DNA from: Chlorobiota bacterium
GTDB taxonomy: Bacteria > Bacteroidota > Ignavibacteria > OLB7
DNA length: 41,910 nucleotides
Direction of reading: 5' to 3'
Assembly: GCA_021296135.1 (NCBI GenBank)
Contig: JAGWAZ010000036.1
Span: 1 to 41,910, forward strand
Part shown: piece after piece, positions 55 to 14,063 of the stretch
Position numbering within the stretch: position 1 is the stretch's first letter
Layout: each line of letters begins with the position of its first letter
The notes under the pieces: generated by a model
Seen by the model: only the letters and a program-made list of their open reading frames with translations
What the model was told of the DNA's origin: nothing
Databases searched by the model: none
Made by a program: the position numbers and the translations under genes

Positions 55-3000
55 TTATTCCTCCACAATCGCAACTTCTTCAGCGGTTAAGTTGTATAAC
101 GAGTATACCTGTTGGTCAATCTCATCTTCAAGGGTGGATACGTCCGCGTCCGGGTCAGCGCGTTTGGCGTCAAGGATTTGATCGACGATTTTGCTGATAA
201 GTGCCTTCTGCACTGGCTTGATATTGGGAATAGGGATTTGAGACACATACTGGGCAATAAATCTTACAAACCCACCCCGAATCTGTGTGCTTGTCTTTGT
301 GTAAAACCAGAAAACGGCTTTGCTGTTGAGCAAACCGAGAAGCCACATTTCCTTCGTTGGTAAGAGATACAAAGTATTTCCCAAAAAATAACCGTCATCA
401 TCAAAGGAAAACTCCGTTCCTTGCACTATATCAGGATAAACAATCTTCGGTTGCTCAAACTCTTGCCAATACGCACATGCCCGCAACTCCCAGAAGTATT
501 TCCCCTGATCGTATCGTTTAATCAGTCGCTCCCGAAAGGGTTCAAAGTGCGCGTGAATTGCAGGATAAGTATTGGCGAAGATCTGCTCCGCTTCTCCCGC
601 AGATTGCCCCGACCACGGATGCGCCCGATTTTCCGACGATTCAATTGTGATCAGGTACTGCTCGGCGAAATTCACCTGCCAACGCTTCACATCGCGCCCA
701 CGCAGAAACGGCTTTAATACTTCAGCGGACGATGGGTGTTCCGCAATGAGTGTATCCCGCGTCTCTCTGTCCACGACAAATGCTTCGTTCAAACCTGTTT
801 TGATACCGGAATAAAACCGTCCCTTGACGTATTCGCCCAGCGGTTTGCCGGCGTTGCGGAGTTTCTCCAGCAGATTCAACATAGCGGGAGATGTGAGCCG
901 CCAACCGTCAGCGGTTAAGGCATTTTGCGGCATGGTGAAACTGTTCGTCCGAAAAATCGTCCCGAATTCGTCAATTGACGGGCCTGGCTCCCAATTCAGG
1001 GCGCGAAGGTGGTTCCCTTCAGTGTGGGTTTTGGACACTGTGATAATGCTCGGATACGCAATTGACGTGAAAACAGGCGCGTCGCCAAAATCAATGAGTT
1101 GAGACACGGTGGACTGACGGGCGAGGAAATCGCGAAGTTTCTTTCCGTAGGCTGACCGGAAATACTTGTTTGAAGAGATATAGGTCAAGACGCCATCGTT
1201 CCGTAGCATCTGAAAACCGCGCTCATAGAAATAGACGTAGAGATCGGCTGTGCCGGTGTAACAGGCGTATTGCTTCTTCAGCGTTGGCTTGAGCGTTTTG
1301 ATTTTCTCTTGGCGAACATACGGCGGATTCCCAATCACCACATCAAACCCCTCCCCAACCCCAAACATCCACTCCGGGTCGAACCAATCCGCACTTGCGC
1401 TCTGGTCGTAAAGGTCCCAATGGGCGATTTTTTCCGCATCATCGGCGGGCATGCCGACACTTTTTAATTCCGCTGCCAACTCCTCCCGCAATACTTGGTC
1501 CTTTTTCTTGCACTCCAGTTTTTGGCGGCGGGTGGTCGCGTGAAAATATCGCTCGCGGTTGTCGCTCAGTTCGCGCTCTAAATCTCGTGCTTTTGGGCTT
1601 GTCAGCATTCGCTCGCCTTCGAGACCGAGTAGCGTGTTCGCCGCGATAAAGCGCGTCTCCAGATTCGGAAGTGGCTTGACCCCCAAGTTCTCGGCTGTCG
1701 TGTCCGGTTCCTGCTCGATTGTCAGTGAGATGAAGAAGCGGAGTTTGGCAATCTGGCAGGCGATGGACTGAATGTCTACACCGAAGATGCTGTTTTGGAT
1801 CAGGTACAACTTCCGCCCGAAGTCTGAATCCCGATACCGCTTGAAAGTTGCGTCGATTTCGAGGAGTTCTTCGCGCCGTGTTTCGTCATCTTTCGTATCG
1901 AACGCGGCTTCCGTCCGTTGTATCGCACGTTCCTTTTGCAACTGTTCCCAACGGCTGTTGTCCGGGTCAAGCCGGCGCAGTGCGAGGGCCAGCTTGTGTA
2001 GCACACCCATCGGAAATGCACCGGAACCGACCGCCGGATCGAGTATCTTGAGTTCGGAAATCGCCCGCACAATCCCGTCGAGCTCATCGTCATCGAACCA
2101 GACGCTGGCGTCGTCGAAAACCTTCGCATAGTCGAGCAGATAATGTAGCCGCTCGTCCCAAAATTTTGCGTCGCCGTCCGTTGGTTGCACCTGTCCTGCC
2201 AGCGTCGCCACCAACCCTTCCTCCACCATGTAGTCCACGATAACACGCGGGGTGTAATATGACCCGGTCTGCTTACGGGCAGTCGCGCCGGTTTCGGGGT
2301 TGTATGCCGCCAGCAGGTTTTCAAAGACTTTGCCGAGCAGTTCCGGGTCGAGCGCGACCTCCTGCTCGATCGGCGTGTTCTCTTCGACTGTGAATTTGTA
2401 GTGGTCGAGCAGGGGAAACAGACCGCGGGCTTCGTCAAAAAAGAGACGGTCGGGAACGCTCGACTTCTTGTAATCGACATCGGAAAAGCAGTCAATACGG
2501 TAGCCTCCAGATCCGTTTGCCTCCACGCTGTCCAAGCAATCGAACAAGCCACCGTTGATGAAGGGCGTTTGGGCAAACAGAGCCAGCAGCGTGTCCGGAT
2601 CGCGCATCTCGTCTTTGTAGCGGTAACATGAGAAATCGCGGTGTTTGGCGTTTGTTCGGGTGCTAAACCGACGCTCGTTTATCTCGGTGTTCAGCGTGGT
2701 GAAAAACAGGTTTTGTAGCACGGCGCGGTAATAGGAATCGCCGCTGCCGCGGTCGAAGTTTTTCAACAGGCCCTCGATCTGCTTGTCGTCGAACAGGTCG
2801 GCGGCAACCAGCTTTTTCTCTTTGATAAACCAGATGAACAGCAGGCGTGTGATTAACCGGATAACGTGTTCTTGCGGACTTAACGTCCTTTTTTCCTTTG
2901 TCGGGAATCTTGCCTGAGACACCGCCCATTCAAACCAGTCGAACAACTTCCGATAAAATTCCTTATTGAGTGCTTCGGTGTCGAGCGTCTCCTTCCACAC

Positions 3001-3639
3001 CTGATGAAGCTCAGGGAAATTCGTGAAGCGGTGCTGACGAGACAGTTCGCTGAGCGACAGGTCGAACAGGATTTCGATGTGCGCCCGGTGGGGTTCGCTG
3101 AAATTGATGTCCTTAATCAGCGTCACCTTTTCGAGGACATCGCGGGATTCGTCGCGTTTGTGCAAACGGCGGTCAATAATGGCGAAGGTCAAGGTCGACC
3201 CGTGCTGGAAAATGACCAGCGCGGGCATCGCCGTCAGCTTGTTGAGTTCGCGGGTGATGGTGGAGAGTTGGGTGCGGGCGTAATCGCTACGCCGTAGCTT
3301 CAGGACGAAAAAGAGGTAGGATTGATAAAGTTGCTGATCGACTTCGCTGTTGCCGAAGTCCATCGTGACCGAACCGTTGCCGGTGATCTCTTCTTCGGTC
3401 AGTTGAAACAGGAAATCGATCGATTCCCATTCATCGACCTGCGCCCGCTCCGGGTTCATCTTGCCATTTGGATCGAACGCCCCGACAAAGCCGTCGGCGG
3501 TGTTCGGTTCAAGGGCTATCGTTCGTGTGCTCCGGTAGTCGAGTGTGTTGAGCAGGTTTCGGGCGTTTTCGGCGAGGTTGGTATTTCCGAAGCGTTTTAG
3601 GGCTTGGGTGATTGCTTCTTTGTGTTGTATATCGTTCAT
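55..3639 (-). CDS. Eco57I-type N6-adenine DNA methylase with TaqI-like specificity domain
   Basis: A 1194-residue protein of the large Eco57I/type IIG-like methylase family, expected to methylate adenine in a specific DNA target. SAM-binding motif I is DPAVGSGAFPMG (about residue 533) and the catalytic adenine-methylase motif is NPPYVRQE (about 768). The C-terminal region carries the TaqI-like target-recognition pattern, including GNTLYLLP and IPIPNIKPVQ followed by a short helical tail. True type IIG enzymes carry a PD-(D/E)XK nuclease near the N-terminus; I see no clear one here, so cleavage may depend on a partner. The PLD/SNF2 helicase gene upstream on the same strand is the obvious candidate, 245 nt away across a palindromic repeat. 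The ATG is preceded by CGGAGAAT, a fair ribosome-binding site. It could also be a BREX PglX-like enzyme, but no other BREX gene is present. Confidence 0.9.
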   Translation of the reverse strand: MNDIQHKEAITQALKRFGNTNLAENARNLLNTLDYRSTRTIALEPNTADGFVGAFDPNGKMNPERAQVDEWESIDFLFQLTEEEITGNGSVTMDFGNSEVDQQLYQSYLFFVLKLRRSDYARTQLSTITRELNKLTAMPALVIFQHGSTLTFAIIDRRLHKRDESRDVLEKVTLIKDINFSEPHRAHIEILFDLSLSELSRQHRFTNFPELHQVWKETLDTEALNKEFYRKLFDWFEWAVSQARFPTKEKRTLSPQEHVIRLITRLLFIWFIKEKKLVAADLFDDKQIEGLLKNFDRGSGDSYYRAVLQNLFFTTLNTEINERRFSTRTNAKHRDFSCYRYKDEMRDPDTLLALFAQTPFINGGLFDCLDSVEANGSGGYRIDCFSDVDYKKSSVPDRLFFDEARGLFPLLDHYKFTVEENTPIEQEVALDPELLGKVFENLLAAYNPETGATARKQTGSYYTPRVIVDYMVEEGLVATLAGQVQPTDGDAKFWDERLHYLLDYAKVFDDASVWFDDDELDGIVRAISELKILDPAVGSGAFPMGVLHKLALALRRLDPDNSRWEQLQKERAIQRTEAAFDTKDDETRREELLEIDATFKRYRDSDFGRKLYLIQNSIFGVDIQSIACQIAKLRFFISLTIEQEPDTTAENLGVKPLPNLETRFIAANTLLGLEGERMLTSPKARDLERELSDNRERYFHATTRRQKLECKKKDQVLREELAAELKSVGMPADDAEKIAHWDLYDQSASADWFDPEWMFGVGEGFDVVIGNPPYVRQEKIKTLKPTLKKQYACYTGTADLYVYFYERGFQMLRNDGVLTYISSNKYFRSAYGKKLRDFLARQSTVSQLIDFGDAPVFTSIAYPSIITVSKTHTEGNHLRALNWEPGPSIDEFGTIFRTNSFTMPQNALTADGWRLTSPAMLNLLEKLRNAGKPLGEYVKGRFYSGIKTGLNEAFVVDRETRDTLIAEHPSSAEVLKPFLRGRDVKRWQVNFAEQYLITIESSENRAHPWSGQSAGEAEQIFANTYPAIHAHFEPFRERLIKRYDQGKYFWELRACAYWQEFEQPKIVYPDIVQGTEFSFDDDGYFLGNTLYLLPTKEMWLLGLLNSKAVFWFYTKTSTQIRGGFVRFIAQYVSQIPIPNIKPVQKALISKIVDQILDAKRADPDADVSTLEDEIDQQVYSLYNLTAEEVAIVEE

Positions 3640-3683
3640 CTTTTATTCTCCGAACGGTGCTTGTGGTTTCTTAATTTAACGGT

Positions 3684-3862
3684 GTAGGTTGGGTTGAGGG
3701 CGGTCAATCGACTGCACCGGCAAGTGAGGCGCATGCCGAGCGCGGTAGTTCCTCTTGCATTTGTTGCGTTTCACTGTCAATGAAGCCCTTGACGTTATTT
3801 TTGAACCGAAACCCAACGTGAGAGTCAATGGCTTTTGTGCCACACCGTTCAACCCGACCTAC
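3684..3862. repeat. Intergenic palindromic repeat between helicase and methylase genes
   Basis: GTAGGTTGGGTTGA at 3684-3697 faces TCAACCCGACCTAC at 3849-3862, an inverted pair matching at 13 of 14 positions. A further AACCCAAC at 3810-3817 is complementary to 3688-3695. The GTAGGTTGGGTT...AACCCAAC pattern resembles dispersed palindromic intergenic elements seen in many bacteria. The 245-nt gap contains no gene I can support. It separates two genes that probably work together, so it may be a later insertion or a structured spacer. Confidence 0.55.
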
Positions 3863-3884
3863 GGGCTTTGCTCCTGCTCGTTAT

Positions 3885-6800
3885 TCATGACTGCGGGTTT
3901 GCGATGATCAGCCAAGTGACCAACTCGAAATCGCTGGCGTCTCTGGGGGCTTCGGATTCGAGAGGCAGTTTGAAGTCGCGTGTGCCGCCAATTCCCAGAT
4001 TTTTGATCTGTGTCCTTGTATGTGCCCTGCTGACGTGGGCGATGACCGCCTGCAACAATTTATCATAACGCGCCATGTCCGCGCCGTTTTGGGTTTCTCG
4101 GTCAAACTGGATGCACAGTTTTTGCAACGGTTCGGTCTTTCCGACAGCCGCCGCTTCAAACAGATCTAGCACCTGTCTGGTGTTCGTGCAACCGTAGCGA
4201 ATGTCGCCGTTATTGCGGATATAGACCGCGTAACAGGGATGAATCGGGCTGGCGGCTTTTCCGCCTTTATCCGTGCTGGCGTTCCGCTGGCGCAGAAAAA
4301 AGATGACGCCGGTTTCAGCGGGATTGTTTCTGGTGTCGGTGACCGCATACGCCCCGTCGGGAGTCGCATCCAATTCCGCCCTGTTTCTTTCGAGATACCG
4401 CAACAACTGGTCGAAGAAGTAATCGAGCGTAAAATCACTCAGGACGACGCCATCGGACAGTTCATCTAGGTCCAGCATATCTTCGCGCAGTTGCTTCAAT
4501 TGCTGGTCACGGAAATTTAGCTCCATCTGGGCCTGTTCAGGGGTAAATTCGTTCAACGGGTCGTCGTCGCCGCTTGCCGCCGCGTCCGCGAGTGCCATGC
4601 GAGACTCGACACGACTTCGCAAGCGCAAATAGACATCCATGTCTTCGGTCGGCCAGTAGTTAATCATCCGCACCGACAGGTTGTGGCTACCGATGCGGTC
4701 AATGCGCCCGAAGCGTTGGATGATACGCACTGGATTCCAGTGGATGTCGTAATTCAACACCGTGTCGCAGTCCTGTAGGTTCTGCCCCTCCGAGATGCAG
4801 TCGGTCGCAATCAGCAGATCGATTTCGTCGCGGGTGTCGTCGTCGCGTTTCCGCGCCAGTGGCGCGAAATTGGTCAGGATGGCGTTGAAATTGTTGTCGC
4901 CGAATTCGGTTTGTGTCGCGTCGCCGGAGACCAGGCCCATGTTCAGGCCTAGACCGCCCGCCAGCTCCGACAAGTTTCGATAAAGGTACACTGCCGTGTC
5001 CTTGAAGGTGGTGAACACCAGTAGCTTGCGGTTGGTTTTGCCGTCCTTGTCGGTCGTCGGGTTTTGTGCCTTGTTCCGAATATGCGTCTTGATCGCTTCG
5101 AGCTTGCCGTCCCGTTCCGGCGTGATTGCTTTGACCTTGTCCCGAGCCGCGGTCAAGGTCAGTTTGTCCTTTATGAGCTCGTCCTTCCAGCGGGGGCAAT
5201 CCAATTCCCGCAGGTGATAAGGGTTGCGCCCCCGATTCACCAGAAACTCTTCATCATCCTCGTCGTCGTCCGGCAGGATGTCGGCTTCCGCTTCCGGCAT
5301 GTGTCGGTTTTGTTGAAAGCGGTCGATCTTTTCCAGCAATTCGTCAATCTTGCCGATGGTGCGTCCGAGCGTTTCTGCAAGGGAGTACGCCGAACTCTCC
5401 AAACGCTTCAGGAAGTTTGTCCGCATCATCCCGATCAGGAAACGCTCGCGGTCCTCCTGATTGAACCGCAGTTCTTGTTTCTCTTGTGCCAACCGCCGCC
5501 TTGCCTCCGCGTCGATAACGTAGCTGGACGGCTTATAGATGGACAGGGCGAATTTCTCTATCTGCTCGGACAGATCTTTATAGGAGAGTGTGCCGGTCGA
5601 GTCGGTCGGCGGGTGAAAGTTTTCCGGTTTCAGTTGTTTGGGAAACTCGCCGATTCGACTCATTTCGTCGGCGTAGAATTTCTCAATCTGACGCCGGGAA
5701 CGGGCGATAGAAACGCCGCCCAGCAACTGGAAAAAATCGGCACCCAATGTCGCCAGCAACTTTGACTTGTCTCTTCTGCCGCCGTCGTCCGGGCTCTCCT
5801 CCCACGCCTTAAACGCCTTTTGCGCCCGCCTCAGCAAAGCGTCGATATTGCTGATTCCCAAACTTTTCTGGAAGACATCCGTGCGCTTTTCGGTCATCAG
5901 GTAAATCTGATTCCGCAAGTCGATGAGCGAGGTGTTCACCGGCGTCGCCGAAAGCATCAGCACCTTCGTTTTGGCACCTTCCTTGATAACCTCCTCCAAC
6001 AGGCGTGTGTAGCGACTGTGGCGGATCTTGCCGTCGTCGTCTATGCGGGGTTTGGTGTCGTTGCGGAAGTTGTGCGATTCATCGATCACCACTACGTCGA
6101 AATTGCGCCAATTGAAACTCTCCAAATCAATGTCCCCGGACTTGCCGCTGTCGCGGGACAGGTCGGTATGGGACAGGAGTGTGTACCCGAAGCGGTCATC
6201 GAGGAAAAGATTGTTGCGATGGGCATTATAGGCCGGATACAGTGCCCAGTTTTCGCGCAGTTTTTTGGGACACAACACCAGCACACGCTCGTTTCTCGAT
6301 TCAAAGAACTTGATAACCGCCAGCGTCGTGTAGGTTTTCCCCAATCCCACGCTGTCGGCGAGGATGCAGCCGTTGTGCCGCAACAGGCGGGCGATGACGC
6401 TTTTTACGCCCTCTTTCTGGAAGTCGTACAACGTATTCCAGATTTTGGTGTCGTACAGGTGCGTGTCTGCCAGTTTCTGGTCGCTGTCCCTTCTGGCTTC
6501 GATGTCGTCACGGAACAGCTCGTAGAGTGTCTTGTAATAAATGAACTCTGGCGCGTGGTCTTTCCCTAGCCGGTCGAGCGTGGCAAGCACTTCCGCTTTT
6601 ACATCTTCGACCCGGTCTTCGTCATCCCATATTTCATCAAACCACGCTTTTAGGTCCTGGAGATCTCGATTGCTGTCAACCACCAAATTGAGTTCAATGT
6701 TATTGTCCGTCGGACTCAGGCCCAGTCCGCGCACGGTAAAATTGGAGCTGCCGATAATTGCCTTCTCCACGCCGTTAGTGGCGATGTGATACATTTTCCC

Positions 6801-7175
6801 GTGAAGTAGGTTCGATTCCCGAATCGAGCGAACCTGCACTTTTTCTCTGATCCAATCGGCGCATTCTCTAGCAACCGGCTTCTGCCGAAGTTGCTCACGA
6901 AGCTGCAAGCCCTCGTCCACAATCTTGAAGGCTTTCTTCCCGGTGCCATCCGGGTCGAGGCCTTTGATAAAGTTGGGTTCACCGAAAAGAAACCGAAGTC
7001 CCTCGATCCCGTTCAGAGACGCTTTCAGGGCGTCAAAAGCGTGAATCGTAAAATAGGCCGACACGATCGAGAGGGCTGAACCTTCTTCGATTTTGGACTT
7101 CAGGAAATCGCCAACCGTTCCCCGGTCGCGGTTGTCGCGGATTCCAGACGGAAGCAGTAGGTTGTTACTTGGCAT
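3885..7175 (-). CDS. Phospholipase D-like/SNF2-type DNA helicase
   Basis: A 1096-residue superfamily 2 helicase with an N-terminal PLD-like domain. The PLD half-motif is HGKMYH at 125-130 followed by GSSNFT at 142-147; the usual aspartate seven residues after the histidine is alanine (132). The helicase core has Walker A DSVGLGKT (274-281), DESH (365-368), LSATP (408-412), and late motifs ATDCISEGQNLQ and QRFGRIDRIG in the second RecA fold. Such proteins move along DNA and in defence loci act with methylases in restriction. The ATG is preceded by ATAGGAGTC. The gene lies just downstream of a broken transposase and upstream of the Eco57I-type methylase. It resembles the role of DrmD in class 1 DISARM, but the fused PLD domain and missing DISARM partners argue against a plain assignment. 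Confidence 0.9.
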   Translation of the reverse strand: MPSNNLLLPSGIRDNRDRGTVGDFLKSKIEEGSALSIVSAYFTIHAFDALKASLNGIEGLRFLFGEPNFIKGLDPDGTGKKAFKIVDEGLQLREQLRQKPVARECADWIREKVQVRSIRESNLLHGKMYHIATNGVEKAIIGSSNFTVRGLGLSPTDNNIELNLVVDSNRDLQDLKAWFDEIWDDEDRVEDVKAEVLATLDRLGKDHAPEFIYYKTLYELFRDDIEARRDSDQKLADTHLYDTKIWNTLYDFQKEGVKSVIARLLRHNGCILADSVGLGKTYTTLAVIKFFESRNERVLVLCPKKLRENWALYPAYNAHRNNLFLDDRFGYTLLSHTDLSRDSGKSGDIDLESFNWRNFDVVVIDESHNFRNDTKPRIDDDGKIRHSRYTRLLEEVIKEGAKTKVLMLSATPVNTSLIDLRNQIYLMTEKRTDVFQKSLGISNIDALLRRAQKAFKAWEESPDDGGRRDKSKLLATLGADFFQLLGGVSIARSRRQIEKFYADEMSRIGEFPKQLKPENFHPPTDSTGTLSYKDLSEQIEKFALSIYKPSSYVIDAEARRRLAQEKQELRFNQEDRERFLIGMMRTNFLKRLESSAYSLAETLGRTIGKIDELLEKIDRFQQNRHMPEAEADILPDDDEDDEEFLVNRGRNPYHLRELDCPRWKDELIKDKLTLTAARDKVKAITPERDGKLEAIKTHIRNKAQNPTTDKDGKTNRKLLVFTTFKDTAVYLYRNLSELAGGLGLNMGLVSGDATQTEFGDNNFNAILTNFAPLARKRDDDTRDEIDLLIATDCISEGQNLQDCDTVLNYDIHWNPVRIIQRFGRIDRIGSHNLSVRMINYWPTEDMDVYLRLRSRVESRMALADAAASGDDDPLNEFTPEQAQMELNFRDQQLKQLREDMLDLDELSDGVVLSDFTLDYFFDQLLRYLERNRAELDATPDGAYAVTDTRNNPAETGVIFFLRQRNASTDKGGKAASPIHPCYAVYIRNNGDIRYGCTNTRQVLDLFEAAAVGKTEPLQKLCIQFDRETQNGADMARYDKLLQAVIAHVSRAHTRTQIKNLGIGGTRDFKLPLESEAPRDASDFELVTWLIIANPQS

Positions 7176-7203: not shown

Positions 7204-7822
7204 TCAAGAGCGTGTGTAAAGCTGCTGAGAGCGACCCTTCGGCTGAGCATGGAGAGTGCTACCAGCAAGGATAACGCCTGTAGAGAGCAAAACGATACGA
7301 AAGAGTCTTGCTACAAGGCTTCCTTGTGGAAAAAAACATGGTGTTTGTGCTGTTCCGGTCGCACGCACCGCCGATAGGTTCGATACAGTCAGCATTGTAC
7401 TTTTACGATTAGGTGAATGAACAGGTCCTGTCGTGTTTTTTACGACCTTCGCCTCGATCTTTCCCGTAGTTCTGTCCTTTGCGCCGACTACTGCGGCCTT
7501 GCCCACGGTTCCACGTCCGGCATTTTGCTTCTTGTTAGAATGCTTGTCGCCCTCTTTGCCGCCGATATAGGTTTCGTCCACTTCGACCGGCCCTGCGAAC
7601 CTCTTCGGAATAGAAGAAACCGACCCCTCTCCGATACGCTGAAGCATAAACATTCGAACTTCCGCACCGGAGACATGCCTTAACGTCATCGGGCCAGTGA
7701 ACGGTCTCGAACCACTTTTGGGCAGTGGCTTCGTCAGGGATAAGGTTCGTCAGTTCCAATACCGTAATTCCTTTTCTGTATTTAGGCCTCCTTGTATTTC
7801 CGCCAGTAGGATACCATGTCAC
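7204..7822 (-). pseudogene. Internally deleted, frameshifted IS1595-family transposase
   Basis: Two pieces of an ISXO2/IS1595-type transposase overlap in different frames. The first (from 7822, GTG overlapping the ParA stop) holds the N-terminal part with the zinc-finger half CLRCGSSNV. The second holds MFMLQRIGEG and the catalytic stretch GPVEVDETYIGGKEGDKH, ending near KVVKNTTG. The roughly 100 residues that normally lie between them are missing, and the two frames meet around TGTTTATG near 7640-7650. After about 7430 the resemblance to transposase stops. The remaining codons read LFRIVLLSTGVILAGSTLHA, which looks like a secretion signal and may come from another gene. No functional product is expected. 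Confidence 0.8.
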
Positions 7823-8835
7823 GCTTCCCCGAGCTCGATCCGTGCCACTATCTTCTCAGCCAAAACCTTAAAATCTTGGTACGCTGCGGTGGCTGCGGTG
7901 GCGTGGCCACCGATAGCACCGTCGGCCGTCGTGAGGTAGAAAATGGGCTTGCGCGCTTCCTGCGCCATGGGCACCAGGCTCCGATAGTGCTTAACAGTGG
8001 CGAGGGCGTGTTCTTCATCTTGCGCCGGCATCGCCGGGTACGGTCCTTCGTTATCGTCGTGCAGGTTGCGGGCGTATTCTTCCGGTATTCGATTGACCCA
8101 CTTGTCGTACGCCTTGACGGGGCGATCCAGGCGGACGCCGTACTGTTGCACCACATAGCCGATGGGTTGCATGTCTCCATTCGGCAGTGGAAAGTCAGGT
8201 TTCGCCCAGTTGTCTCTTCGTTGCCGCCAGTCTTTCCGCCACAGATTCAGCGTCGGGCCGAGGTTCCGCAGGCCCTGGAGCGAGAACAGATCGGCGCCTA
8301 ACGGAACGACGATGTGATCGGTGGCAATCAGCGCGGAGCGATTAATCGCACCGAGATTGGGGCCGACATCGGCCAGAATGACCGAGGCCTCCATTTGCGT
8401 TGCCCCGGACTGCATCACGGTCGAGAAGGCAGTCAAAATGCGGAAGGGGCGGTACAACTCGCTAGTAGAACCACCCAATGCTTTAGGCCATTCTGATGAC
8501 AGGGTATCTTCAAATCCGGCCAGGGCCAAGTCTCCCGGTATCAGGTTCAGCGTAGATGTAATTTTCGCGAGCGTCGGGTCTTTGATGTCCCCCACTTTCG
8601 CCAGAGGTCGGACGCATTGCAGGATAGTCTGCCCGGATGCGTCATTGCCTTGGTTCCACCGCTTTTCCAACTGCTCTTCATCGAGAAATGCGGCGGTAAG
8701 ATTCGCCTGCGGATCGAGGTCGCAGGCCAGCACCCGATAACCGATCTCGGAGAGCATCCACGCCAGATGATAGACCAAGGAAGTTTTGCCGACACCGCCC
8801 TTGTTATTAAAGAAAGTCAAAACGGGAACAGACAT
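7819..8835 (-). CDS. ParA/Soj-type P-loop ATPase
   Basis: A 338-residue ParA/MinD-superfamily ATPase. The deviant Walker A NNKGGVGKTS lies at residues 10-19, the DLDPQAN switch motif near 41-47, and a Walker B-like ILADVGPN later. Family members form ATP-dependent dimers on DNA or membranes and move plasmids, chromosomes or protein complexes. No parB gene or parS-like repeat array is visible nearby, so a plasmid-partition role here is doubtful. It starts 2 nt after the stop of the AlbA/Schlafen-type gene, with GAGGATAT before the ATG, so the two are almost certainly co-translated and perhaps co-functional. A relic of an integrated plasmid is the alternative. The family call is firm; the role is not. 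Confidence 0.9.
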   Translation of the reverse strand: MSVPVLTFFNNKGGVGKTSLVYHLAWMLSEIGYRVLACDLDPQANLTAAFLDEEQLEKRWNQGNDASGQTILQCVRPLAKVGDIKDPTLAKITSTLNLIPGDLALAGFEDTLSSEWPKALGGSTSELYRPFRILTAFSTVMQSGATQMEASVILADVGPNLGAINRSALIATDHIVVPLGADLFSLQGLRNLGPTLNLWRKDWRQRRDNWAKPDFPLPNGDMQPIGYVVQQYGVRLDRPVKAYDKWVNRIPEEYARNLHDDNEGPYPAMPAQDEEHALATVKHYRSLVPMAQEARKPIFYLTTADGAIGGHATAATAAYQDFKVLAEKIVARIELGEA

Positions 8836-8837
8836 TG

Positions 8838-10076
8838 TTATATCCTCTCAGAATCGAGCACCGTTTTTATCGTGGCCAGCACATAACTGCTGTTAACCTC
8901 AAATTTCGGTTCCGGATGCCCCGCTTTTTTCAGCAGCTTTCTCGCTGTCGATATCCCTACGCCAAAACGCTGAACATAGCCCAGAGTTTTCATAGCTTCC
9001 GCCAGATTGGGGTTACGATAATCGGTAAATCTGTCCTCGCCGAAATTCTGGGCGGTTACTGTCCCGAACGCGCCACCGGGACTCAGGACCTCAATGCGGT
9101 CATTGAACCAAGTAATACGGACGGGAGCATTGGTTCCTTCATAAGTCCTGTGCATAACCGCATTCCGGGTAATCTGCTGCATCGCTACTATGGGGTAAAG
9201 TTCAGTTCGTTGTTCGATGTCGCTTTTTGTGAATTCTACCGCTATGCGATTATGGGCTTTCAGCTTATCGTCCAGACGGCGAAGCAGGTCCGGAACTGCG
9301 CCGCCGATTTCCTCGCTGTCAAGAATATCATCCGTTAGCTCGCGGCCGCCAATTTTGAGGAATTGCACATAAGCGCCGGGCAGGAAATCCTGAGGGTTCT
9401 TCCCGATAGTGAGGATCCCCGACACAGTCGCCGTAGGTTGGTCGTCGGCAACAACGATCATTTTTGTCGCGGCCAGTCGCTCATTCAGGCTGCGGTCATT
9501 CGCAGCCAATATCTCGTCGGAAAATGCTCGGCGCAAGTATTCGTTCTCAAACCGGGTCAGGTTAAGGTCCGGCAAGCCGGCCGTGGGAACCGGCTGGATG
9601 TCGAAGGGGGAGTCGCCGTGCCGTCGCTTTTCATTGAGCATCCTTTCATCTTGTGCCGTGGCGGTGCCGCGGCGCGGGCCATTGCGGACATAGATGACAC
9701 CTTTGCAGCGAACCGGTGGCGAGTCGGAGGGTTGCACCGTGACAACCGCAACCTCCTTGCCTTGCAGGACACGCTTTTCCACCGTCAGCGATGGCGGCGG
9801 CACGGTATTGCCGTCGGTTTTCATATCAGCTAACTTTCGGAGCAATTCGTCTGTGACCGATAGATCCCCGATAGTTCTGTCATCCCTCACTCCCACGATA
9901 ACGAGACCCGGTTTTCTGTGGTCGGGCAGATCGTTGGCAAAGGCGCAGATGGCTTCCCTGATTTTTTCGGCGGTGCTGTTGGACAAAGACTCCTTGAACT
10001 CGACGCAGTCGGATTCGCCTTCTTGGATGATCTGTAGCAACTCTTCGTCTGTAAAATCTGGCATCGCGATTCCCAT
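8838..10076 (-). CDS. Schlafen/AlbA_2-type ATP-binding protein with C-terminal HATPase fold
   Basis: A 412-residue protein of the COG2865-like family. The N-terminal AlbA_2 (Schlafen-like) domain shows ESDCVEFKESLSNS near residues 16-29 and GLVIVGVRDD near 57-66. The C-terminal part has the GHKL-like ATP-binding pattern ITRNAVMHRTYEG, then DRIEVLSPGG and QRFGVGISTARKLL. Family members are often called transcriptional regulators or tRNA/DNA-binding factors and many lie in defence islands; the biochemical role is mostly inferred. ATG codons at 10076 and 10064 are both possible; GGGA sits just before the second. It precedes the ParA-type gene by 2 nt, forming an apparent operon. Confidence 0.85.
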   Translation of the reverse strand: MGIAMPDFTDEELLQIIQEGESDCVEFKESLSNSTAEKIREAICAFANDLPDHRKPGLVIVGVRDDRTIGDLSVTDELLRKLADMKTDGNTVPPPSLTVEKRVLQGKEVAVVTVQPSDSPPVRCKGVIYVRNGPRRGTATAQDERMLNEKRRHGDSPFDIQPVPTAGLPDLNLTRFENEYLRRAFSDEILAANDRSLNERLAATKMIVVADDQPTATVSGILTIGKNPQDFLPGAYVQFLKIGGRELTDDILDSEEIGGAVPDLLRRLDDKLKAHNRIAVEFTKSDIEQRTELYPIVAMQQITRNAVMHRTYEGTNAPVRITWFNDRIEVLSPGGAFGTVTAQNFGEDRFTDYRNPNLAEAMKTLGYVQRFGVGISTARKLLKKAGHPEPKFEVNSSYVLATIKTVLDSERI

Positions 10077-10105
10077 TGATTTTGATTGTATGTTATCAGT
10101 GGTAT

Positions 10106-10330
10106 TTATCGAATCCTTTCTTCCCTGGCTAAGAGCGTTCCGACTCTCTGTAAAACCGCATCCACTCTCTCTGTATGCAATTCAGACATCTTCCACTGCC
10201 GCAACTTCCTCCTTTGTTCGGGAGCTTTGCCCGTCAGGATGCTATCGACTAGGTGGATGAACGGACGCTGCTTCGCGACGGCGATTTTGGGGATGGGGAT
10301 GATTTCAATATCAATCTTCAAAATCGATTC
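10106..10330 (-). pseudogene. Remnant of a TaqI/Eco57I-type specificity domain C-terminus
   Basis: Starting where the upstream giant gene ends, this frame reads IIPIPKIAVAKQRPFIHLVD followed by SILTGK. This parallels IPIPNIKPVQ...KIVDQILDAK at the C-terminus of the methylase at 55-3639. The remainder of a methylase is absent, and the last 35 or so codons do not continue the usual tail. It is best read as the leftover 3' end of a second methylase or specificity gene lost by recombination. The final codons from MSELHTER onward could be an unrelated very short gene, preceded at a distance by GGAGG. Confidence 0.55.
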
Positions 10331-13300
10331 CGCTTGAATCACGTTCCGCCTGTTGCTCATAGTCCTCCGCAAGCTTGCGCATTTCGGTTGCAAATCTCGA
10401 ATAACATTTCTTCTCAAGGGCCTCTGCCTTTTCGCGATTCAGTTGTGCCAATTCTCGCTCTTCTTTCCCAGCAGTGTGGTAGTAGGCTCCTCGTTGCTCG
10501 AGAAGCTTCACTATAAATCCGGAGCGCATTGCTCCCGCGTCTCTTGCGTTCAACGCAGACGCGACCTCCTGATGAATCCACAGGCCATCGGGGTCTGGTG
10601 GCGCATGTGTCAATACATGGCCGACCTGTGTCTGGGCAGCTTCACTGTGCCCAGTCTCTTTCGTAATCCGCTTCTCCTCCTCCAGCCATTTCCTGAAAGC
10701 ATCTGAATCAAAGGAGCCATCAGGAAGTTTACCGGGACAGATTCTCCATTTGCTTAGGAGTCTGTAGGTTGGGATCCAGTAGGGATTCCGGTCCAGATTC
10801 CTTCTTTGTTCACTCGGTTCGTCGCCGCTTTCGTCCTCGTTCTTTGAAGGAAAAACGAGGGCTACGACCTCAGCGAAGAAGGCGGGGTCCGAGGCTAGAC
10901 GTTTTTCAAGTGTCACTGGTGATCCTGATCCCTCATCAGGATCGAGCAACGGATCGAGCAACGGATCGAGCAACCAAAGAAAGTTCCATTCAATCTTGAA
11001 AAGAGCGTCTGATTCAGCGGTAGGCGATTCCTGCAGGCGCTTTATTACCTCGACGGTCAGATCGTGGTCCAGTCGATTACCCGTGTCGGGCGTCTCCAGC
11101 ACGGCAAGAAGTGCTCGAATTGCAAGGTCTTCATTAAATCTCTTTTCGTCTTGGATCGTGAGATAGACACAAGAGACAGCTTCGGGAGCCCGCCCGAATT
11201 CGATGAATTTCTCGATTGCTAAAGTCAGGTCTTGATCTTGCTCAAACCGATCTACGTCGGCCTTCATCCAATAGAGCCTCTCATTCGCTTCGCCGAGATG
11301 GTCCTTTACTCGACTCCGAACGCCCTCATTGAATGGAAGCAGGATCAGGAATGCGCTTTTATGAATGTCATTCCAATCATTCCCGAGAACCTGATCAACC
11401 CAAGCCCAATTCAATTTTATAAATCGTTCCCAAACGAACCCGGATACAACTCGATTCTCAGTTTCGTCTTCAGTATTAAGCAGGGACGGAAGAATTTCCA
11501 CCTCGACCTCTTCACTTTCGATACTACCCAGAGCACGTCCAACTTCATAAGGTGCAGCAACACTCTGAGCGAAAGTCAAAGCAGCACGCACACCTTCTGT
11601 GTCAAGAATCGTTTGCACAGCATCCTGACGATCCTTATCACGGCGCTTTCGCTGACCACTGAAGAGGTAACGATATTTCAGATGTGGGGTCTCGGGAGCC
11701 AAGGTTTTTGCCACACCCTTAATCTCTCTGACTGTCTCTTCCGGCATTGCCCCCTTAGTATACGAAAATCTCCGGTGTTTGCGTACTAGACTATCCAACC
11801 TTTCCCAGATCACCAGGCGCTCAGCCTCAGGCAAAGCTACGACCTCTTCCGAAGCTAAATGTTCCAGAAGATTCTCGCGTGCTCGCTCGGGCAAATCGGG
11901 TAGACGATTAATCAACTCCTCGAGTTTCTCAGTGCTTGTCTTTGCGAGTCCAACTGCCAACTCTGTATAAATCGTTATTTGTTTCCAATACTCTGACCTC
12001 GGGACACTGTCCTTCCAATCTCTCGGAATGTAGTTCCGCCAAGTCGGTCGACGGCGCTCAATGGTGGAATTGTGATAGCGCGGCAATAGACTTAGAATTA
12101 ACTCCCAACCTACTTTCGGCTGCTCGCGGAGAACGGTTTCGACAGCCGCCTTCCGCTTCTCGAGTGAGGCGCATGTCTGCACACGCCAAGGTAAAAAGAT
12201 AGCTACGAGGGAGTTTGACGGGCGGTTTGCCCAGTTTCCTCCAGGAGGATCGATCGAGGCAAGGTCGGATAGAATCACGGCTACCCGAGAAAGGAAATCT
12301 GGATGCCATGCAAGTGTTTCCAGTGCCCACAATAGGCCGCTCATGTAGTTTCGCCCTCCCACGCCTCCACTAAAAAGCTCGCGAAACGGAGATCGGTCCA
12401 AGTCTTCTAACGCTAACTCGACGGCGTCGAGGAACGCCTCAGGAGCCGCTTCAGCCAGGAGCGGCAACAGCGAATCCAAACTCGCCCGGCGGTCCCAGTT
12501 CGCATTTTCCAAAAGTCCTCGGACTGTGAGAATTGCCGTATTTTCGGGTTTGCCATGCGAACACGAGGAAAGTGCTTTCGAGCGACTTCCAACGAGTGCG
12601 AGTGTTTCTGCCAGACCTTCACGAAGAAAACAGGAATGTTTCAGTGGTTTATCGTGAATACTTGCCGCTGTCTCTTGGAGCCGATCGAGATCCTCATCCG
12701 TTATGCTGTTACCCAACGCGTTCCACCCTTCATCTCGTGGGACAAATCGCCATTTTTCATCGAGTTGAGTTAGGGGAGAGTCACAGCTAAGCGCGTCAGG
12801 TCTCAGTGTCTCGATCCACTCCCCATATCCTTTTCCCGACAACCTCTCCAAAGCAGCCCGGTCTGCCGGGTTCTTGCCGTCCCATTTTCCTGCAAGCATG
12901 GCTTGCGCAATGAGCCTCGCATTATCCCATTTTGCGTAAGGAGGCAGCAGACCCTGCAAATGCCTGCGTAACGCGGAAATTCGATCACCTCCAATCCTCG
13001 CTAGCTCTCGGGAACGGACGTCTGAGTAACCTGTCTCTTTAAGGACCGTCTCTATCTGGGATTGGGACGGACTTCGTAGTTCGATGATTTCATGACTTCC
13101 CCCTGCCCCTGCACCGCAAAGCGGAACGACCACCGCATGTCCTTTTTGCGTGGCCCTTGTTCGGAGGTCAGCTCGTTCCTGCGTCTCCAAACCGAGCCGG
13201 GGATCGGCTACTAAAACATCTACTAAAACATGTGGTCTCCGCATCGCCACGACCGAACGCCAAGCATCCTCTTCGGAAACGTACAGGCATCGGGAGGCGT

Positions 13301-14063
13301 AGTTCCGCGCGGTCTCCTCATCAAGTGTCTCGATATAAGCTGAAACGAAGTCGGCGACATCAATCGAGCTTTCTGCAAACAGCTGCAACTTTTGTGATGT
13401 GCCTTCGAACAGCTCCTGTAAAGCATTGCAGGCATTGCTGCGCCCCTCAGTGAATAGCCTTGGAGGAAGACGAGGGTCGTCTGATGCGGCCGGTGCGCTG
13501 ATGATTTCCCAATGCTCCCTTGGAGTAGAAATCCCTCCTAAGCTTTTTGACGATCCTGTCTTTTGTGCCATCCACCGGCCCACAGCTGGAAACTCTCGCA
13601 ACCAATCGGCGAGTTTAACGCCGTCGATAATTCGGATATCTTTCCAACCCTTATCTTTTTTGCTTTTCCGCCACTTTTCCTGATCCGGCTGACTCCATCC
13701 ACCGGCACCGGCGTAACGGGGAGTCACGAAAACAAACGAAGCCTCGGCCCGATCGGTTTCGGGGAGAGCGTCCGTCCTTTTGTCGAAGTCTGTATCAGCT
13801 TTGGTCTGCGGTTTTGCCCCAGTGCCGATTTCCCAGTACGATCTGCCCTCCGGAACGAACTCAGGAAACGCTGTTTCAGCTTCAACGATCCCATCCCAAC
13901 CCGATTGATTTACAGCGTCTCCATAGGGAATGCGGAACTCAGAAGCGTTGGAGACAGATTGCTTTACAAGCAAGTAGAGCAACTCTGGAATTACGGCTTG
14001 GCTATCTCTGGTATTTGCATATCGTTCAAGCTCGCCGGCCTGAACGATGTGAGTGTGGTCCAT
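10311..14063 (-). CDS. Large putative defence protein: N-terminal PD-(D/E)XK-like nuclease, helical C-terminus
   Basis: A 1250-residue protein without a family name I can give. The N-terminal about 170 residues look like a restriction-endonuclease fold: PYGDAVNQSGWDGIVE (47-61) supplies a candidate metal-binding aspartate (D57) and SYWEIGTG (75-82) a glutamate (E78). The canonical E-x-K lysine is replaced by glycine, so K84 or K88 might substitute. Residues from about 200 to 320 look like a P-loop NTPase fold that has lost its GKS/T loop; RPHVLVDVLVADP resembles a Walker B strand. The rest is mostly alpha-helical, HEAT/TPR-like, and contains three LLDP units. This layout recalls antiviral STAND (Avs-like) sensors with a nuclease effector, which is inference. 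TAGGAG precedes the ATG. It is the first gene of the island. Confidence 0.7.
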   Translation of the reverse strand: MDHTHIVQAGELERYANTRDSQAVIPELLYLLVKQSVSNASEFRIPYGDAVNQSGWDGIVEAETAFPEFVPEGRSYWEIGTGAKPQTKADTDFDKRTDALPETDRAEASFVFVTPRYAGAGGWSQPDQEKWRKSKKDKGWKDIRIIDGVKLADWLREFPAVGRWMAQKTGSSKSLGGISTPREHWEIISAPAASDDPRLPPRLFTEGRSNACNALQELFEGTSQKLQLFAESSIDVADFVSAYIETLDEETARNYASRCLYVSEEDAWRSVVAMRRPHVLVDVLVADPRLGLETQERADLRTRATQKGHAVVVPLCGAGAGGSHEIIELRSPSQSQIETVLKETGYSDVRSRELARIGGDRISALRRHLQGLLPPYAKWDNARLIAQAMLAGKWDGKNPADRAALERLSGKGYGEWIETLRPDALSCDSPLTQLDEKWRFVPRDEGWNALGNSITDEDLDRLQETAASIHDKPLKHSCFLREGLAETLALVGSRSKALSSCSHGKPENTAILTVRGLLENANWDRRASLDSLLPLLAEAAPEAFLDAVELALEDLDRSPFRELFSGGVGGRNYMSGLLWALETLAWHPDFLSRVAVILSDLASIDPPGGNWANRPSNSLVAIFLPWRVQTCASLEKRKAAVETVLREQPKVGWELILSLLPRYHNSTIERRRPTWRNYIPRDWKDSVPRSEYWKQITIYTELAVGLAKTSTEKLEELINRLPDLPERARENLLEHLASEEVVALPEAERLVIWERLDSLVRKHRRFSYTKGAMPEETVREIKGVAKTLAPETPHLKYRYLFSGQRKRRDKDRQDAVQTILDTEGVRAALTFAQSVAAPYEVGRALGSIESEEVEVEILPSLLNTEDETENRVVSGFVWERFIKLNWAWVDQVLGNDWNDIHKSAFLILLPFNEGVRSRVKDHLGEANERLYWMKADVDRFEQDQDLTLAIEKFIEFGRAPEAVSCVYLTIQDEKRFNEDLAIRALLAVLETPDTGNRLDHDLTVEVIKRLQESPTAESDALFKIEWNFLWLLDPLLDPLLDPDEGSGSPVTLEKRLASDPAFFAEVVALVFPSKNEDESGDEPSEQRRNLDRNPYWIPTYRLLSKWRICPGKLPDGSFDSDAFRKWLEEEKRITKETGHSEAAQTQVGHVLTHAPPDPDGLWIHQEVASALNARDAGAMRSGFIVKLLEQRGAYYHTAGKEERELAQLNREKAEALEKKCYSRFATEMRKLAEDYEQQAERDSSGIDFED
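10939..10974. repeat. Three perfect 12-bp tandem units inside the giant gene
   Basis: GGATCGAGCAAC is repeated three times without change at 10939-10950, 10951-10962 and 10963-10974. On the coding (minus) strand it specifies consecutive LLDP units. Because 12 is a multiple of three, slippage would change protein length without breaking the frame. Confidence 0.85.

Follow-up and report, generated by a model that had tools for sequence, protein, structure and literature searches.

A PLD-SNF2 helicase and an Eco57I/TaqI-type methylase as a candidate two-gene restriction-modification system

SauUSI is a single protein that carries an SRA recognition domain and depends on modification, and type ISP enzymes (LlaGI-like) hold nuclease, motor, gamma-MTase and target-recognition domain (TRD) in one polypeptide with a PD-(D/E)XK nuclease. 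Restriction effectors of the PLD-SF2 kind and methylase-guided systems are already known, represented by SauUSI, CglI/NgoAVII, BREX-related type 2 systems and the 'HKD+Snf2' model of PADLOC. SauUSI and BfiI dimerise via their PLD domain (PMC7913695). For DISARM type I/class 1, PADLOC requires DrmA, DrmB, DrmC and DrmD together with DrmMI (PMC9252829).

The window considered here, by which we mean the whole stretch of DNA that was analysed, is one entire contig (C46, 41,910 bp) of a 2.86-Mb genome that is 99.8% complete. A sequence-only reading had singled out a methylase and a PLD-SNF2 helicase at one end of it, proposing a minimal restriction system of two genes whose nuclease activity would come from the PLD domain. 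The whole genome was searched family by family. We think it probable that the pair is a compact ATP-dependent restriction-modification system with the cutter on the motor protein. Observed directly are the domain make-up, catalytic motifs that are intact, a pairing and gene order that are conserved, a hypervariable TRD, and a PLD site that is present in some groups and lost in another. The general parts of an ATP-dependent restriction-modification system are all present: an SF2 motor with intact ATPase motifs, a nuclease domain and a cognate methylase. Note that the contig ends 54 bp beyond the methylase stop, and that the sequence left of the methylase is unseen rather than empty.

Two intact genes and their domains

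The claimed gene pair is real, with both open reading frames intact on the minus strand. The first (55..3639, 1194 aa) encodes a DNA N6-adenine methylase of the Eco57I/TaqI type with its own TRD in the same chain, matching Eco57I (PF07669, 6.8e-41) and TaqI_C (PF12950, 2.2e-19); its solved relatives are BseCI, a group of site-specific adenine MTases (7lni, 8cxz) and TaqI. From N- to C-terminus, and throughout on the minus strand, the protein comprises a DUF4391-like domain (residues 1-230; 2950..3639), a helical linker that is strongly conserved among homologues and that the AF2 model, at declining confidence, shows largely as helix (residues 231-430; 2350..2949), the catalytic core (residues 431-860; 1060..2349) and a hypervariable TaqI_C-type target-recognition region (residues 861-1137, with PF12950 at 976-1137; 229..1059). 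Within the core, motif I (DPAVGSG, 534-540) comes before NPPY (771-774), the gamma order, and NPP[YFW] is kept in 31 of 32 methylase homologues. That the methylase has these motifs but no obvious nuclease, as had been noted, holds by Pfam and by fold: no nuclease family matched the chain, and comparison of the predicted structure of its N-terminal 440 aa with solved structures gave nothing better than E=0.12 and no hidden nuclease fold, the AF2 model being confident for residues 1-230 and weak beyond about 310.

The window methylase itself scores 19.8 bits (7.8e-4) against PF14335 (DUF4391), under the curated cut-off of 29.9 bits. The same family is matched by 13 of 20 methylase N-terminal homologues (best 2.3e-6), and hhalign pairs the methylase N-terminal domain with standalone plasmid DUF4391 proteins (prob 92.3, E 5.6e-7). 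By profile comparison, the methylase begins with a DUF4391-like domain. A fold search with it returned no PDB match, and tblastn of the window's N-terminal domain found it nearly absent from plasmids, with one match in Planktothrix. Our literature search on DUF4391 in defence found no relevant paper; one paper that mentions the domain concerns another subject.

At the other end of the chain, TRD identity within the group of closest methylases is mostly 13-35%, as against 61-89% in residues 431-600. Judged by these identities, the TRD is the fast-evolving part of the methylase, which is what one would expect if specificity changes. Longilinea arvoryzae (L029:13276-18833) has a second TRD downstream of the methylase, in inverted orientation, accompanied by a serine recombinase and by inverted repeats of 312 bp (95.5%); a similar arrangement with shorter inverted repeats occurs at L054:13308-18847. 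From their layout, these second TRDs are probably invertible specificity cassettes. At a further locus (L006:17774-20437) the methylase is directly followed by a TIR-TPR protein with a TaqI_C-type TRD that shares 42% identity with the TRD region of the window methylase; this protein is possibly a TIR effector aimed by DNA sequence.

The second gene (3885..7175, minus strand, 1096 aa) encodes the PLD(HKD)-SNF2 helicase, for which Pfam reports PLDc_2 (1.5e-10), an NgoFVII-type PLD (1.3e-6), SNF2, ResIII and Helicase_C. It had been described as carrying a PLD domain and full SF2 motifs, and both are there. The motor (4596..6443, minus strand) has Walker A GLGKT (277-281), DESH (365-368) and motif VI QRFGRIDR (820-827). 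The PLD domain (6606..7175, minus strand) has a BfiI-type site made up of H125, K127, N145 and E161. Both the site (H-x-K, N and E) and the fold are those of BfiI/SauUSI/NgoAVII-fold nucleases; the model matches SauUSI as its top fold match, along with BfiI and the NgoAVII R-protein.

Partners of the helicase and the fate of the PLD site

A scan of GTDB representatives for the helicase gave 54 loci, spread over Poribacteria, Caldilineaceae, Verrucomicrobia, Cyanobacteria, Gammaproteobacteria and others. Among helicases longer than 900 aa with at least 700 bp of downstream sequence (n=38), 36 are followed by a same-strand protein that carries the methylase N-terminal domain and starts no more than 1.5 kb downstream, often with a 3-4 bp overlap. 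The partner is usually a methylase, and in cyanobacteria it is a sigma-70 fusion. The two exceptions (L020 and L021) carry the domain at another site in their genomes, apparently on the same contig and upstream. Within the phylum of the window, a sample of 198 genomes contained a helicase relative in 28 and a methylase relative in 32. Surveying the neighbourhoods of homologues was the check that had been proposed, and repeated pairing without drmABC is what it returned. At four loci, small antitoxin-like ORFs separate the helicase from the methylase (HI1420-like in L007, L012 and L040, HicB-like in L014), and two cyanobacterial methylases of the same family (L172, L174) have no adjoining helicase and are apparent orphans.

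The relatives fall into several arrangements. Group A, to which the window belongs, combines the PLD-SNF2 protein with a chain made of DUF4391-like domain, linker, MTase and TRD. Group B has the PLD-SNF2 protein, a standalone DUF4391 protein and type III Mod and Res, and is found on plasmids of Acinetobacter, E. coli, Methanomethylovorans and others, in phage phi1605 and in the window's own phylum. In group C, from Oscillatoriales/Microcoleus, there is no methylase; the helicase gene overlaps a giant fusion gene whose product, of 1,880-2,450 aa, joins a DUF4391-like domain to sigma-70 regions 1.2, 2, 3 and 4 and to AAA_22 (L024:13309-20664, L025:7838-13486, L027 and L044, with L028 and L047 partial). 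Group D pairs a more distant PLD-SNF2 protein (27-33%) with an Eco57I MTase that has no DUF4391-like domain. Finally, the cyanobacterial group A2 has two genes and a weak N-terminal match, and branches outside A, B and C.

In the phylogenetic tree, B forms a clade (0.999), as do A and C together (0.955), and C (1.0) is nested in A. Because of this nesting it appears that sigma-70 took the place of the methylase inside group A. Our literature search found no relevant paper on sigma-70 fusions. A Gemmatimonadota locus has both forms in tandem after the helicase, first a DUF4391-like-sigma-70 fusion of 546 aa (L015:5932-7572) and then a DUF4391-like methylase (8487-11408).

These arrangements differ in the state of the PLD site. 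All four residues (HKNE) are intact in 41/41 helicases of group A, 7/7 of A2, 6/6 of C and 12/12 of D, that is in 66/66, and are lost in 17/17 of group B. The ATPase motifs are intact in all groups compared, including those without the PLD site. Res of group B carries the PF19778 endonuclease domain in both proteins examined (n=2). Since the groups free of Res keep the site, and the group in which a type III Res brings a nuclease has lost it, the most economical interpretation is that the PLD domain probably does the cutting wherever Res is missing. Note that group B is one clade, so that the loss counts as one phylogenetic association and not as 17 independent ones. With recurrent pairing in the absence of drmABC and a PLD site kept in Res-free groups, the comparison of relatives supports the proposed two-gene restriction system with PLD as its nuclease.

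Alternative readings of the locus

How many genes does the system need? Upstream of the helicase, on the same minus strand, lie two candidate accessory genes, one for a ParA-like ATPase (7819..8835; PF13614, 9.4e-28) and one for a Schlafen/AlbA_2-RecG_C-like protein (8838..10076; PF04326, PF13749). Between them and the helicase is a partial IS1595-type transposase remnant (7204..7689, minus strand; PF12762), which we place outside the system. One might therefore suppose that the core exceeds two genes and that both proteins are essential subunits, interrupted here by the IS remnant. Their conservation in some relatives speaks for this: ParA-like orthologues stand upstream of the pair in L005 (73%), L041 (61%) and L006 (60%), Schlafen/AlbA_2 orthologues occupy the same place in L005 and L006 (71-72% identity), and the order of Schlafen/AlbA_2 and ParA-like genes ahead of the helicase is the same in L005 (71-73% identity for the two) and in L006, with the ParA-like gene alone in L041. 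However, both genes are missing from most relatives of the pair and so are accessory at most, which makes the larger core unlikely. The term minimal consequently fits the core of the family but not every locus, as some close relatives share the two further upstream genes. Three further points count against the compact system proposed above: the sub-cut-off DUF4391 match in the window, the contig end 54 bp past the methylase, which leaves room for a third gene, and the extra genes in some relatives. Further along the window (10311-14063, minus strand) is a 1250-aa protein without Pfam or PADLOC match, whose N-terminus looks by eye like a PD-(D/E)XK-type region; it is possibly another defence gene beside the system.

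A less likely scenario still is that the methylase is a type IIG enzyme carrying its own nuclease, with the helicase as an unrelated neighbour. The best PADLOC models for the methylase are indeed REase_MTase_IIG, but neither Pfam nor the predicted structure of the N-terminus reveals a nuclease domain. That N-terminus is DUF4391-like and turns up again in proteins that lack a methylase and, on its own, next to the same helicase family. The conserved pairing with the helicase, moreover, argues against an unrelated neighbour. We reject type IIG membership, there being no nuclease in the methylase chain by sequence or fold.

Very little speaks for a truncated or degraded class 1 DISARM, in which the pair would be DrmD and DrmMI, and drmA, drmB and drmC would have been lost or would lie just past the contig end. 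The contig does end beside the methylase, and PADLOC gives weak profile matches to DrmD (113.8 bits) and DrmMI (100.5 bits). Yet the DrmD equivalog score is 139 against a cut-off of 610 bits, the DrmMI match is partial and, at about 100 bits, far under family level, and other models score better (HKD+Snf2 at 360 bits for the helicase, type IIG MTase at 375 bits for the methylase). The resemblance to DrmMI/DrmD that had been suggested comes down to shared SNF2 and MTase superfamilies. None of drmA, drmB and drmC is seen in the window, as the sequence-only reading had it. No MZB/DUF1998 (DrmB/MrfA type) protein is found in the 99.8%-complete genome, and the DrmA model matches only the window helicase and two weak generic helicases there, with no true DrmA. 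With neither a DrmB-type protein nor a true DrmA in the genome, drmA and drmB are not hidden left of the window. The relatives agree: in a PADLOC scan of 101 neighbour proteins no family occurs in more than four, and the 25 commonest families include none of DISARM (the list may omit those seen once or twice). Of 31 relatives' genomes, 14 have MZB proteins, which lie away from the pair by coordinates or contig number; an ambiguous Thiomargarita match on contig C44 was checked at the locus (L050), and no such protein is there. On the absence of DrmB-type protein and true DrmA, and on DrmD and DrmMI scores that are far too low, we reject membership of DISARM class 1.

That the pair belongs to a BREX-related type 2 system (HKD-Swi2/Snf2 helicase, N6-MTase, DUF499 ATPase and DUF3780), which does have the same helicase architecture and an N6-MTase (PMC12839542), is highly improbable given that no DUF499 protein matched in the genome and that the HmaA model gives the window helicase 76 bits only. 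BREX membership as such is rejected on the PglX-type methylase scores (64.5 bits and lower against a cut-off of 500), and PglZ and BrxC were not seen in the window. Type III membership is rejected on the order of motif I before NPPY, on Eco57I/TaqI_C rather than PF01555 and on the PLD nuclease domain, and type I membership on a TRD that lies inside the methylase chain rather than in a separate HsdS.

A proposed mechanism and its place among known systems

Returning to the compact ATP-dependent restriction-modification system, we can imagine it working as follows. The C-terminal TRD of the methylase would recognise the sequence, and what is presumably an adenine would be methylated on host DNA. 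At an unmethylated site the DUF4391-like N-terminal domain would dock the PLD-SNF2 protein, forming a putative complex, and the docked protein may then move along the DNA using ATP. Paired PLD domains would finally cut both strands, by analogy to SauUSI and BfiI. An adaptor role for the DUF4391-like domain is suggested by its position, since it adjoins this helicase family whether standalone or fused to varied partners.

It is tempting, if speculative, to extend this role and see DUF4391 as a general adaptor that might plug the PLD-SNF2 effector into swappable DNA-recognition modules. These would be the TRD methylase, the type III Mod/Res, where the nuclease of the effector is dead, and the cyanobacterial sigma-70-ATPase fusion, which would make a methylation-free system, possibly promoter-triggered.

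If the proposed mechanism is true, it defines a compact two-gene layout of ATP-dependent restriction-modification whose parts currently go by unrelated labels (type IIG methylase, SNF2 helicase), and DUF4391 gains a first hypothesis as to its function. The natural contrast between groups that keep the PLD site in the absence of Res and the group that has lost it in the presence of Res would make the nuclease assignment directly testable, and the sigma-70 variant suggests that something besides methylation may direct the same effector. In the literature searched we found no description of the two-gene layout with a DUF4391-like adaptor, of PLD loss in the Res-bearing clade or of the sigma-70 form, and no relevant paper on PLD-Eco57I systems.

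Which described systems come closest? DISARM class 1 shares an SNF2 helicase and an adenine methylase with the pair, but DrmA and DrmB are absent here. PADLOC C3a139 ('HKD+Snf2') represents the same helicase family, with 360 bits in the window and 402 and 432 bits in groups B and C; it is a protein model only, for which we found no system or mechanism in the literature searched. The type III-linked module (HKD-SNF2, DUF4391, Mod and Res, on plasmids and in the Erysipelothrix phage phi1605) has a homologous helicase (37-42%) with a DUF4391 protein directly after it, but differs in its beta-class Mod and Res nuclease and in a PLD site destroyed in 17/17 examined. CglI and NgoAVII (PMC4267653, PMC5737866) likewise combine a methylase with ATP-dependent cleavage by an R-protein and a helicase-like partner, but with three genes and with nuclease and helicase as separate proteins. 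SauUSI (type IV; PDB 7clg) is alike in fusing an N-terminal PLD dimer to an SF2 motor (PMC7913695), whereas here recognition lies in a separate methylase. Type ISP enzymes, finally, have the same set of activities, which are here divided over two genes and include a PLD nuclease domain.
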